From Microbacterium terrisoli (GTDB lineage: Bacteria; Actinomycetota; Actinomycetes; Actinomycetales; Microbacteriaceae), in NCBI RefSeq assembly GCF_030866805.1, contig NZ_CP133019.1:2542001-2606000 (forward strand): DNA of 64,000 bases, in the 5' to 3' direction. Shown piece by piece: positions 12,506 through 62,886 of this stretch; the stretch's first letter is position 1; each line of letters starts with the position of its first letter. The position numbers were made by a program, and so were the translations under genes. The notes under the pieces are model-generated. The model had not been told where the DNA came from. It was given only the letters and a program-made list of their open reading frames with translations, and made no database searches.

Positions 12506-12601
12506 GAGCATGCGCCCGATGAAGGGCGTGCGGGCCGCAAGGTCCGCTCCCACTCACTACGGATCGTCCGGCACGTACCTGCCGGTGAAGGAGAAGAACC
12601 G

Positions 12602-36225: not shown

Positions 36226-37005
36226 TTGTCCAAGAGCATCGACGTCACCGACCTCAACGTCTACTACGGCGACTTCCGCGCCGTAGAGGGCGTCTCGTTG
36301 CACATCGAGCCGCGCAGCGTCACCGCGTTCATCGGCCCGTCCGGCTGCGGCAAGTCCACATTCCTGCGGACGCTGAACCGCATGCACGAGGTCATCCCCG
36401 GCGCGCGCGTCGAAGGCCGCGTGCTGCTGGACGGCGACGACCTCTACGCCCCGGGCGTGGACCCGGTGGCCGTGCGCCGCAACGTCGGCATGGTCTTCCA
36501 GCGTCCGAACCCGTTCCCCACGATGTCGATCAAGGAGAACGTGCTGGCGGGCGTACGCCTGAACAACAGGCGCATCTCGAAGCAGGATGCCGATGACCTG
36601 ACGGAACGGTCGCTGCGCGGCGCGAACCTCTGGAACGAGGTCAAGGACCGGCTCGACAAGCCCGGCTCGGGGCTCTCAGGCGGCCAGCAGCAGCGTCTGT
36701 GCATCGCCCGCGCGATCGCCGTGGAACCCGAGGTGCTGCTGATGGACGAGCCGTGCTCGGCCCTCGATCCGATCTCGACATATGCGATCGAAGAGCTGAT
36801 CGCCAAGCTGAAGACCGAGTACACGATCGTGATCGTCACGCACAACATGCAGCAGGCGTCGCGGGTGAGCGAGCGCACCGCGTTCTTCAACATCGCCGGC
36901 ACCGGCGAGCCCGGCAAGCTGATCGAGTACAACGACACCGCGACGCTGTTCACCACCCCGAGCGAGCAGGCCACCGAGGACTACGTCTCCGGCCGCTTCG
37001 GGTGA
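36226..37005 (+). CDS. pstB: Phosphate ABC transporter ATPase PstB
   Basis: This 259-residue ATPase has Walker [13 protein letters not shown], the PstB-specific [12 protein letters not shown] and [20 protein letters not shown], Walker [15 protein letters not shown], and the His switch [13 protein letters not shown]. The start is a TTG with GAAGGA at a good distance, and no ATG or GTG lies nearby in frame. It closes the pstSCAB operon. Confidence 0.95.
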
Positions 37006-37030: not shown

Positions 37031-37105
37031 CCCACCCACCGACCGGCCCACCCATCGACCGGCCCACGGCACGTCGGTCCCGCCCTCCCTCCACCCATCG
37101 ACCGG
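37031..37105 (+). repeat. Short 16-base repeats downstream of pstB
   Basis: A unit close to CCCACCCATCGACCGG occurs at 37031-37046, 37047-37062 and again at 37090-37105, the last running into the left arm of the nested palindrome. It is a simple-sequence repeat with no coding role visible. Confidence 0.7.
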
Positions 37106-37186
37106 CACACGAGCGGGGATCGTCACCGACACGCCGCGGTCGCGGCATCCCACCCCGGCGTGTCGCGAAAATCCCCGCTCGTGTGC
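37105..37186 (+). repeat. Nested palindromic element, copy 1 (upstream of the DUF559 gene)
   Basis: The outer arms 37105-37120 and 37171-37186 are perfect 16-bp complements, and the inner arms 37127-37136 and 37156-37165 are perfect 10-bp complements. They enclose a 19-base loop that contains GCGGCATCCCACC. A second copy with the same orientation and the same loop core lies at 38166-38247, just beyond the other end of the DUF559 gene. Confidence 0.85.
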
Positions 37187-37293
37187 ACGGGCCCGCTGTC
37201 GCCGCCTCCTGCACAGGCGATGATCGGACCTGAGTCATCCACAGATCTTCCATGACGCCCCACGAGCGGTGATCGGCGGGCCAGCATGGCGAT

Positions 37294-38130
37294 GTGTGTG
37301 AGACGACGGCGCGGGTCACGACCTACGCGCAGCTGCGAGCCGACGGGCACGACCGCCGCTGGATCGAGGCGTCGCTGGGTGACGGCACCCTGGAACGTGT
37401 GCGCCGCGGCGTCTACGCATACGAGCAGCCGTGCGCAGCCGCGCGGGCGGCCGCCGCGCACGGCGGGGCTCTGGCGTGTCTCAGCGCCGCGCGACACCAC
37501 GGACTGTGGGTTCTTGACGACGAGGACGACCAGACGCCACACGTCTGGCTGAACGGCAGCGGACACCGGCGTGCTCACGAACCGTGCACGTGTGTCGAAC
37601 ACTGGGATGAGGCGAAGGCCGTCGACGCGTTCGGGCTTCCCTCCGTGCCTCGCGTGCTGCGTCAGATACTCGCGTGCCGCGGACTCGACGCCTTCTTCGT
37701 CAGCCTGGAATCGGCGCTTCACCTGGGCAAGATCTCGAAGGCTGAGGTCGCCTGGCTGAAGACGCACACCAACGACGCCGCGCGCGAGGCCATCCTGATC
37801 GCCCGGAACGACGCCGACAGCGGCCTGGAGTCGCTGTTTCGCTGGCGCCTGCGCCGCTTCGGCCTGCGGATCAGACCGCAGATCACGATCGTCGGCGTCG
37901 GACGCGTCGACTTCCTGATCGGCGACCGACTCATCGTCGAGATCGACGGCAAGGCGAACCACGACGATGAGTCGCACCGTCACAAGGATCTCGTCCGCGA
38001 TGCGAATGCCGCCGCTTGGGACTACGTGACACTGCGGTTCGACTACGCGCTCGTGGTCCACGATTGGGAGCTCGTCGAAGACGCGATCCTCGGGCAGGTG
38101 CGCGCCGGCGCCCACCTCCACCGCCGCTGA
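37294..38130 (+). CDS. AbiEi-like winged-helix protein with C-terminal DUF559 PD-(D/E)XK nuclease domain
   Basis: This 278-residue protein has an N-terminal winged-helix region of the type IV antitoxin AbiEi kind (YAQLRADGHDRRWIEASLGD then LERVRRGVYAY). Its C-terminus is a DUF559/Vsr-like nuclease with LESLFRWRL (E179), GRVDFLIGDRLIVEIDGK (D206, E216, K220) and a following H-D/R-H-K-D-L-V-R-D helix. All PD-(D/E)XK residues are present, so it should be an active DNA nuclease. The GTG start at 37294 lacks a clear ribosome-binding site. Both flanks carry direct copies of a nested palindrome, and no second toxin gene is adjacent. Confidence 0.75.
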   Translation: MCETTARVTTYAQLRADGHDRRWIEASLGDGTLERVRRGVYAYEQPCAAARAAAAHGGALACLSAARHHGLWVLDDEDDQTPHVWLNGSGHRRAHEPCTCVEHWDEAKAVDAFGLPSVPRVLRQILACRGLDAFFVSLESALHLGKISKAEVAWLKTHTNDAAREAILIARNDADSGLESLFRWRLRRFGLRIRPQITIVGVGRVDFLIGDRLIVEIDGKANHDDESHRHKDLVRDANAAAWDYVTLRFDYALVVHDWELVEDAILGQVRAGAHLHRR

Positions 38131-38165
38131 ACGTGCGCCGCGGTGCCGTCGGCACGCGCGCTCGG

Positions 38166-38247
38166 GCACAGCTGCGGGGATCTTCACCGACGCGCCGCAG
38201 CCGCGGCATCCCACCCCGGCGTGTCGAGAAGATCCCCGCTCGTGTGC
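38166..38247 (+). repeat. Nested palindromic element, copy 2 (downstream of the DUF559 gene)
   Basis: The outer arms 38166-38185 and 38228-38247 pair at 17 of 20 positions, with the three mismatches together. The inner arms 38188-38197 and 38217-38226 pair with one G-T. The loop core and right arm are nearly identical to copy 1 in the same direction. Confidence 0.8.
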
Positions 38248-38287
38248 ACGGGATGACGGGGCGAGACGGCGGGTGGCGGCGCGCGGC

Positions 38288-39172
38288 TCAGTCGCGGGGG
38301 CTGAGCAGGTAGCGGTTGAACGACGCCGTCTCGTCGGCGTCGGCCGGAATCTCGACACCGTCCACGGCCGTGACCGGTGCCGCCAGGCGGACGCTCGAGA
38401 CCAGCCATGCGGCATCCGCCTCGGTCAGCGCCGCAACCGGCACCGACTCATACGCGGCCGCGCGCCCCGTCGCGTGCAGATGGTCGAACAGGCTCATCTG
38501 CGTCGTGCCGTGCAGGATGCCGGTGCCCGTCGCCGGCGTCACGTAGCGGTCGCCGAACCGCAGCACGACCGACGAGGTGGGGCCTTCGAGCACGAGCCCG
38601 TCGCTCGTCACGAAGATCGCATCGTCGGCGCCTCTGCGATGCGCTTCGCGCAGCGCGGCCATGTTCATCGCATATGAGAGCGTCTTCGCGCCCAGCAGCA
38701 GCCACGGCGCCCGTTCAGCGGCGCCGGCGTCGATGCCGCGATCCAGGGTCACGACGCGGATGCCGCGGGTGCGTGCGGCCGCATGATCGGGAGAGAGGGA
38801 TGCCGTGACCCACGCGGTGGGTGCCGGCCCCTGCTCCACTCCGCGGCTGAGGATCAGCTTGATCGCCCCCTCGCCCGGGCCGCATTCGGCGGCAGCACGG
38901 GTGACGGCCTGTCGCCACTGGCGCAGGTTCGGTGCGGGCAGATCGCACAGCCGGGCGGAATGGGCCAGACGCTCGAGGTGCGCGGTTGCCTCCTGCGGGT
39001 GACCGCCGACGACGCCGATCGTCTCGAAGATGCCGTCGCCGCGCTGCGTGCTCAGCTCGCCGACGCTCAGCGCCGGAGCGGACGAATCCACTGCTTGGAA
39101 CGTGGCGGCGAAGTCCTCGCGGTCATCCTGGACGGGTGCCGGATCGATCAGCAGGGCGAAGTGTGCGGCCAT
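38288..39172 (-). CDS. pabC: Aminotransferase class IV (aminodeoxychorismate lyase PabC-like)
   Basis: This 294-residue PLP enzyme has the catalytic lysine in GAKTLSYAMN (K163). The early RGDGIFETIGV, VLEGPTSSVVLRF and GILHGTTQMSL motifs are those of the class IV fold. It most resembles aminodeoxychorismate lyase, which yields p-aminobenzoate for folate, though D-amino-acid or branched-chain transaminases share the fold. It stands alone with TAGGCT six bases before the ATG (leaderless). Confidence 0.85.
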   Translation of the reverse strand: MAAHFALLIDPAPVQDDREDFAATFQAVDSSAPALSVGELSTQRGDGIFETIGVVGGHPQEATAHLERLAHSARLCDLPAPNLRQWRQAVTRAAAECGPGEGAIKLILSRGVEQGPAPTAWVTASLSPDHAAARTRGIRVVTLDRGIDAGAAERAPWLLLGAKTLSYAMNMAALREAHRRGADDAIFVTSDGLVLEGPTSSVVLRFGDRYVTPATGTGILHGTTQMSLFDHLHATGRAAAYESVPVAALTEADAAWLVSSVRLAAPVTAVDGVEIPADADETASFNRYLLSPRD

Positions 39173-60222: not shown

Positions 60223-62190
<1,968 letters not shown>

Positions 62191-62258: not shown

Positions 62259-62326
62259 TCGCGTCGCACGCGGCGCTGGACGCGCTCGCGCTCGACTGGC
62301 CTCGCAACGACCCGCCCTCGCGTGAG

Positions 62327-62394
62327 GCGAGGGGATCTCATGAAACGAGGAGCGAAATCGCCGAATCGGCCCTCGCTTCGTGAGATCCCCTCGC
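62327..62394. repeat. Large palindromic (REP-like) element between acs and ridA
   Basis: The arms 62327-62350 and 62371-62394 are complementary over 24 positions with one G-T and one mismatch, around a 20-base loop. A further CTCGC/GCGAG hairpin follows (62390-62404). It lies between two convergent genes and could serve as a two-way terminator or a repeated element. Confidence 0.7.
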
Positions 62395-62424
62395 TTCGAG
62401 CGAGGAGTGACCGAGCGGGGAGTG

Positions 62425-62886
62425 TCAGACCGTGAAGCTGAAGACGACCTCGACCTCGACGGGCGAGTCCAGGGGCAGCACGGGTGCGGCGACCGCGCTG
62501 CGCGCATGGCGCCCCGCGTCGCCGAAGACCTGCCCCAGCAGCTCGCTCGCGCCGTTGATCACGCCCGGCTGCCCGGTGAAGTCGGGGGTGGATGCCACGA
62601 ACCCGACGACCTTGACGACGCCGGTCAGATGATCGACCCCGCCGACGGCTGCGGCGGCTGCGGCGATGGCGTTCAGGGCCGACTGCCGCGCGTACGCCTT
62701 GGCGTCGTCTGCGGATACCTCTCCCCCGACCTTGCCGGTGGCCGGCAGCGCGCCGCCGCTCATCGGCAGCTGCCCGGCCGTGTAGACCAGGTCGCCGTGC
62801 ACCTTGGCGGGCACGTAGGCGGCCACAGGCGGGACGACCTCGGGCAGCGTGATCTGCAGGTCGGCGAGCGTCTGCGAAACGGTCAT
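62425..62886 (-). CDS. RidA-family protein (YjgF/YER057c/UK114)
   Basis: This 153-residue protein has the RidA fold with VYTAGQLPM near the start and the arginine-containing GRHARSAVAAPVLPLDSPVE, in which the Arg is the imine-binding residue. RidA hydrolyses reactive enamines/imines. It is the longer subfamily seen in actinobacteria. It starts one base after the DUF4177 stop, so they are co-translated. Confidence 0.88.
   Translation of the reverse strand: MTVSQTLADLQITLPEVVPPVAAYVPAKVHGDLVYTAGQLPMSGGALPATGKVGGEVSADDAKAYARQSALNAIAAAAAAVGGVDHLTGVVKVVGFVASTPDFTGQPGVINGASELLGQVFGDAGRHARSAVAAPVLPLDSPVEVEVVFSFTV

Follow-up and report, generated by a model that had tools for sequence, protein, structure and literature searches.

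Why a gene for a putative nuclease should lie between two copies of one palindrome is the question raised by a 64,000-nucleotide stretch of the Microbacterium terrisoli genome (NCBI RefSeq assembly GCF_030866805.1, contig NZ_CP133019.1, positions 2,542,001 to 2,606,000; hereafter the window). An earlier note, made from the sequence alone, had described there a 278-residue protein that joins a winged helix-turn-helix (wHTH) half resembling the antitoxin AbiEi to a DUF559 nuclease domain, its gene being bracketed by two direct copies of a nested palindrome, and had likened the arrangement to repetitive extragenic palindromes (REPs) with their REP-associated tyrosine transposases (RAYTs). Gene and palindromes are present where the note had placed them. 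The arrangement suggests small mobile or selfish DNA of a type of which no description was found, and it appears somewhat probable to us that the gene and its two palindromes belong to a large class of such nuclease-palindrome pairs, spread by the action of the nuclease.

The two copies at the window locus are direct, 90% identical and 1061 nt apart from start to start; each is 88 nt long (82 in the earlier note) and nested as described. The outer stem, described as 16–20 bp, is a perfect 16 bp in copy 1, whose inner arm pair is 14 nt long with 93% complementarity, but that description does not fit copy 2, in which the outer arms measure 23 nt and are just 83% complementary because mid-arm bases differ. 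The core GCGGCATCCCACC common to both copies and the G-T pair that holds the inner stem of copy 2 together were both read in the sequence as claimed. A self-alignment palindrome score of at least 18 is reached by three peaks in the window, namely copies 1 and 2 and a peak at 62361.

The DUF559 domain of the protein lies above the Pfam cut-off (28.8 against 20.6 bits), whereas the AbiEi-like part is weak by sequence, with Pfam AbiEi_4 below its cut-off (E 0.026) and a PADLOC AbiEi profile at E 7.5e-5. The Pfam scan of the 278 residues returned DUF559, MTES_1575, the weak AbiEi_4 and nothing else; the domain of Y1/IS200-type transposases (PF01797) was not among the matches. The nuclease half has a Vsr-like nuclease fold, and E179, D206, E216, D218 and H223, the conserved acidic and histidine residues of a set to which we presume active-site roles, are invariant in 21 of 21 aligned sequences. 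In the AbiEi-like half C2, C47, C62, C98, C100, H103 and C128 are invariant.

The link between gene and palindrome was followed through an orthologue set of 80 loci, the best among 213 matching stretches from named genomes, with a profile seeded with 12 palindrome copies from the M. terrisoli genome and iterated over all 80 loci. A palindrome of the family to which copies 1 and 2 belong (family 1) lies within 600 bp of the gene in 58 of the 80 loci and on both sides in 50, and the outcome that the earlier note had named as fatal to its idea, a palindrome unlinked to DUF559 genes in relatives, is not what these loci show. Near the gene there are 148 sites against 15 in the remaining 1362 kb of the loci, a 143-fold density, and reversed sequences gave no match to the same profile. 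The seed profile alone (E 0.1) finds palindromes in 47 loci, on both sides in 26, with 103 near-gene sites and 11 elsewhere, and a covariance model over the loci gives a similar picture (331 matches at E <= 1, the best 300 listed). Counting strict palindromes without gaps (27 of 37 pairs) caught just 36 flank sides in the 80 loci, and the gapped self-alignment score was used instead. In 41 of 52 loci the nearest upstream palindrome has its centre 136–172 bp ahead of the match start, and in 53 of 56 the nearest downstream one is centred 51–184 bp past the match end; the three loci with extra copies that were examined hold arrays, with units of about 100–165 nt including spacers.

At the threshold that was also applied to the further loci below, the two sides match in 45 of the 80 orthologue loci and in 3 of 446 control open reading frames (ORFs); where both flanks have a palindrome the figures are 45 of 50 and 3 of 25, the latter being the fairer control because many control ORFs lie inside gene clusters. 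A chance arrangement of gene and palindromes is ruled out by the 80 loci together with these controls. The same counts bear on the proposal that the hairpins are ordinary bidirectional terminators or insulators, common near the gene by chance, for which their GC-rich stems and the position of copy 2 between two convergent genes would speak; the rarity of matching sides in the controls, the sequence that the copies share beyond their stems and the absence of any Rfam family match to copies 1 and 2 at gathering thresholds make it highly improbable.

Many wHTH-DUF559 genes lie between two palindromes of a single family, and the families differ. A second such gene of the same genome (G000:C1:1976640-1977422) has its own family, family 2, which is unrelated to family 1, so that two paralogues of one genome own unrelated palindromes; family 2 comprises nine sites, one 206 bp upstream of that gene, one about 800 bp downstream and seven elsewhere (seven of the nine were aligned), and five other genomes contain none. 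A third family, with 27 sites, flanks the gene at C1:863825-864637 of another genus (G074) and is absent from three other genomes. All three families searched have many further dispersed copies in their genomes. These pairs support the idea of a nuclease-palindrome cassette comparable to REPs and RAYTs, as had been suggested from the window locus.

The association holds over wider draws. Palindromes scoring at least 18 within 500 bp occur at 15 of 27 family-wide loci (22 sites against 1.8 expected) and, in a class-wide draw, at 5 of 6 loci from other genera (7 sites against 0.4), 7 of 12 from other families (9 against 0.8) and 6 of 9 same-genus paralogues (7 against 0.6). Among 73 further wHTH-DUF559 loci, a palindrome (score >=15, within 450 bp) is found at 65 and on both sides at 38; in these 38 the two sides of a locus have a median similarity of 36.3, compared with 10.0 for sides of different loci, and in 33 the own partner scores highest out of 50. 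Excluded from this test were L247 and L260 (short), L257 (the same gene as L286) and L222 and L223 (partial matches). Five other DUF559 genes of the M. terrisoli genome have no two-sided palindromes, three of them having one-sided ones (scores 17–19), and five phylum-level DUF559 loci, out of eight and taken with or without an AbiEi-like half, likewise showed no two-sided palindromes.

Within the genome, BLAST finds at least 12 full-length family-1 sites (22 matches on both strands, some partial; best 40 of 207 candidates scored), and a covariance model built on 12 copies finds at least 16 at E <= 6.2e-8 (best 150 of 12514), by which a palindrome restricted to the nuclease gene is ruled out. 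In a rough ORF test of 22 sites (15 of the 16 of family 1 and 7 of the 9 of family 2), 19 do not overlap a coding-like ORF, the ORFs that the other three overlap being possibly spurious, and at least 7 of the 22 lie between convergent ORFs by a heuristic assignment; the solo copies are positioned between other genes in a REP-like manner. Two copies, L005 and L006 (G000:C1:3384702 and 3370305), which are 14.4 kb apart, have in common a block of 135 nt with 98.5% identity that takes in, besides the palindrome, the 12 nt ahead of it and about 38 nt behind it. This block stands between unrelated flanks and reads as a recent copying event; no obvious target-site duplication accompanies it at this pair, the sole recent one examined. 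In the outer arms of family 1 in this genome (alignment A1), three mid-arm bases are mainly CGA or GCT, and within single copies the left and right arms mix the two versions, as though arms had been exchanged.

An alignment of 126 palindromes, for which RNAalifold gave the outer stem only and both stems were then specified (the inner from the first row), has 90.6% of cells paired against 81.0% after shuffling, with 261 two-sided changes against 98.8, a value reached by none of 500 shuffles; sliding the stem partners abolishes the pairing pattern. The inner stem CGACACGCCG/CGGCGTGTCG is almost invariant, and the outer stem is lineage-specific yet still paired. The two sides of one gene are 0.118 apart in their outer stems (60 pairs), against 0.378 across loci (1128 pairs), and for 21 dispersed copies the outer-stem distance is 0.167 to the cassette of their own genome against 0.382 to others; by outer stem, the own upstream side ranks best in 19 of 36 loci. 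The inner-stem distances (0.122 and 0.129) lack this pattern. Near the gene in L099, L105 and L113 the inner stem stands in reversed order, with GGCGTGTC first, and the outer stem is another one; in L251, L206 and L103 one motif is repeated in the inner and outer arms, like a palindrome nested in its own copy.

The outer stem diverges together with the protein. A first run on 22 loci with a usable pstB ORF was repeated with 48 loci, 27 of them with pstB. Over the 48 loci, outer-stem distance correlates with protein distance for residues 1–55 (0.24, p 0.001) and 56–110 (0.39, p 0.001), weakly for residues 111–165 (0.14, p 0.02) and not for residues 166–220 (0.05) or 221–275 (-0.02). At the 27 pstB loci the values are 0.39 for residues 1–55, 0.42 for 56–110, 0.20 for 111–165 and 0.16 (p 0.09) for 221–275, and the distance of pstB itself shows no significant correlation (0.108, p 0.17). 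Because the divergence of the outer stem follows mainly the AbiEi-like half in this tree-free test, it is probably this half that reads the outer stem, and its invariant cysteines and histidine suggest a metal site beside residues 76–100, which track the outer stem best.

Autoregulation, with the palindromes as operators, is the main rival explanation: the AbiEi-like half would repress its own gene from the upstream copy, the dispersed copies would be a regulon or decoys, and the nuclease would act elsewhere, for example in defence. According to excerpts of PMC7319586, AbiEi recognises 23-bp inverted repeats within its own promoter and Rv2827c does likewise, without cross-binding; the tracking of the outer stem by the AbiEi-like half and the spacing of the upstream palindrome given above also speak for this rival. 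This reading accounts for the upstream copy but not for the downstream one, which is present and matching in 50 of the 52 loci with an upstream palindrome, nor for the tandem arrays of the three loci examined or for the dispersal, including sites between convergent ORFs and the copied 135-nt block. We therefore hold it to be unlikely, if less so than the other alternatives.

The surroundings of the gene are mostly kept in relatives. ORF calling recovered the gene in 73 of the 80 loci, 51 of which have a pstB-like or pabC-like gene no more than three ORFs away; at least four further neighbourhoods exist. The earlier note had asked whether empty sites exist at the pstB–pabC junction. From genus genomes without the gene at that place, 40 pstB-side junctions were taken (40 of 59 genomes covered), at 34 of which pabC was found, the six without a pabC match being left out of the count. 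In all 34, neither the gene nor a family-1 palindrome lies between pstB and pabC, so that here the gene and the palindromes are either both present or both missing; 12 of the 34 have another hairpin there (score 16–22). Among the 59 genus genomes the palindrome (E <= 1e-5) is found in 18 of 18 with a close orthologue (>=340 bits), in 3 of 16 with a mid-score homologue (about 264–308 bits) and in 9 of 25 with only distant homologues or none. The mid-score gene is flanked by family-1 palindromes in G021 and by weaker matches in G010, but not by family 1 in G001.

Table 1. Features of the window (positions in nt of the 64,000-nt stretch).
Feature	Position	Strand	Remarks
wHTH-DUF559 gene	37294..38130	+	278 aa, GTG start; AbiEi-like part ~residues 5-171, Vsr/EDxHD-like nuclease ~174-275
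Palindrome copy 1 (family 1), nested hairpin	37104..37191		outer arms 37105-37120/37171-37186, inner arms 37127-37140/37152-37165
Palindrome copy 2 (family 1)	38165..38252		orientation as in copy 1
pstB-like gene, upstream neighbour	36226..37005	+	frequent neighbour in relatives
pabC-like gene, downstream convergent neighbour	38288..39172	-	frequent neighbour in relatives
Solo family-2 copy	62317..62405		G000:C1:2604317-2604405; contains the palindrome peak at 62361

The neighbours, which we take to be PstB-like and PabC-like from the first reading and from motifs, leave no AbiEii-type toxin gene adjoining, as had been stated, judged from ORFs and homology without a DUF1814 or other toxin profile search. 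The solo family-2 copy of the window sits between a gene ending at 62190, presumably acetyl-CoA synthetase-like, and a convergent ORF at 62425-62886. An msiK cis-regulatory RNA lies at 12541-12599 (Rfam RF01747, 61.7 bits).

The lack of an adjacent toxin gene bears on a further alternative, a defence or addiction module whose nuclease cuts DNA that lacks, or that carries, the palindrome, the copies marking or protecting the host chromosome. AbiEi is part of a type IV toxin-antitoxin system that is linked to abortive infection against phage (excerpts of PMC7319586 and PMC3985639), and PADLOC AbiEi profiles match the N-terminal part of the protein; the missing toxin, the number of family-1 matches, which ranges from 1 to at least 75 over 30 positive genomes, and the outcome of the protein searches, with zero matches in the phage collection and two in plasmids, both weak, render such a module very unlikely.

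In the preferred reading, that of a palindrome spread by its own nuclease, the AbiEi-like half would bind both outer arms as an inverted repeat and thereby position the Vsr/EDxHD-type nuclease on the palindrome, possibly where the conserved inner stem lies, so that it may nick or cut the palindrome as a duplex or an extruded hairpin. Repair of the break by copying would carry the palindrome to new intergenic sites and keep the copies alike. The 135-nt block, with its non-palindromic ends, fits such repair copying better than precise transposition. Solo copies would correspond to REPs in REP-RAYT systems, as the non-autonomous part, and the gene would be kept mainly by vertical descent and relocate occasionally. 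Extended to the class, wHTH-DUF559 proteins would be the enzymes of an undescribed class of selfish palindromes, present in Microbacteriaceae and other actinobacteria and convergent with REP-RAYT systems but run by a Vsr/homing-type nuclease, each protein reading its own outer stem through its AbiEi-like half, cutting at the palindrome and driving copying through break repair, with several families per genome that do not cross-react; for and against this wider proposal we find the case evenly balanced.

Several observations weigh against the spread of the palindromes by the nuclease. How a hydrolytic nuclease could by itself insert DNA at unrelated sites is not obvious, and since one neighbourhood is mostly kept, self-mobility of the gene is rare at best. 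No clean empty site was found for any solo copy among 364 loose candidates, the flanks being mostly divergent among the matches listed and the best candidate (L040/L073) resembling a partial deletion. A third wHTH-DUF559 homologue of the genome (G000:C1:995129-995791) has no palindrome of score >=15 within 450 bp, and 22 of the 80 orthologue loci have no family-1 profile match, of which 17 have some palindrome of score >=16 within 600 bp (about 6 sites expected from the density farther off) and several show other stems on the same plan. The coevolution test permuted labels and used no tree, nuclease residues 166–220 also track the outer stem at the 27 pstB loci (0.185, p 0.006), and the own cassette is the top of 48 for 3 of 21 dispersed copies, while it is within the top ten for all 21. 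Finally, 10 of the 59 genus genomes (G001, G003, G009, G011, G012, G019, G024, G049, G051 and G055) have family-1 palindromes but no assignable gene. In these, 18 of 38 homologues (E <= 1e-30) were examined and none is closely flanked by family 1, most having other palindromes of their own nearby; weak family-1 matches 0.8 kb (G055) and 1.5 kb (G051) upstream of one homologue each, and one inside a gene match in G003, were not counted as cassettes. In G011 and G049, in each of which more than one copy was read, the copies are alike in outer stem, which would fit gene loss.

The ten genomes without an assigned gene are also what might be expected if another enzyme, such as a RAYT or insertion sequence (IS) transposase encoded elsewhere, spread the palindromes, the nuclease gene lying between copies by chance or preying on them; RAYT genes have REPs on their flanks, and RAYTs are believed to move these REPs (excerpts of PMC2817692 and PMC3116915). 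That wHTH-DUF559 paralogues differ in their palindromes even inside one genome, and that outer stems track the wHTH-DUF559 protein and not pstB, make this quite unlikely.

No report joining DUF559 with palindromes was found in open-licence PubMed Central (PMC) papers, subscription papers and preprints lying outside the scope, and the claim of novelty is limited because it rests on that collection. DUF559 proteins are seldom named in these papers, and those with an AbiEi-like half gain a testable candidate substrate in the adjoining palindrome. If the preferred reading is true, a second, independent enzyme class besides Y1 transposases maintains dispersed bacterial palindromes, which bears on the origins of such repeats. 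The many natural protein-palindrome pairs with matched changes would also form a data set for learning how an AbiEi-like domain reads DNA.

Among known systems, EDxHD homing endonucleases (I-Bth0305I) and Vsr differ in that the present gene is not within an intron or intein as far as seen, is bracketed by dispersed palindromes and has an AbiEi-like putative binding half. Unlike the AbiEi antitoxin of type IV systems, this half is fused to a nuclease, and palindromes lie on both sides of the gene and elsewhere in the genome. The elements resemble miniature inverted-repeat transposable elements (MITEs) as short non-coding repeats at many intergenic sites, but no obvious target-site duplication was seen at the one recent pair examined. 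The likeness to REP-RAYT systems, including REPINs, goes further. As excerpts of PMC2817692 and PMC3116915 describe them, RAYT genes are single-copy and always flanked by two inverted REPs, whose palindromicity is kept despite change; in both systems the palindromes on either side of the gene recur at scattered sites between other genes, every paralogue has a palindrome of its own, clusters occur (bacterial interspersed mosaic elements, BIMEs, in the case of REPs) and the gene is single-copy and largely vertical in descent. The enzyme differs, being DUF559/Vsr-like with an AbiEi-like half, whereas a RAYT is an IS200/IS605 tyrosine transposase (PF01797), and the element of about 84–92 nt has two nested stems, whereas a REP measures 20–40 nt (an excerpt of PMC3733652). 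A GT(A/G)G-type head is not common to the aligned palindromes (alignment A3), and the nearest flanking copies have the same orientation in 34 of 50 loci and the opposite one in 16, an assignment made uncertain by the near-symmetry of the elements, whereas flanking REPs are inverted. The nuclease-palindrome cassette is thus closest to REP-RAYT systems by arrangement, but is not a member of them, because its enzyme is unrelated, its element is longer and its flanking copies are mostly direct.
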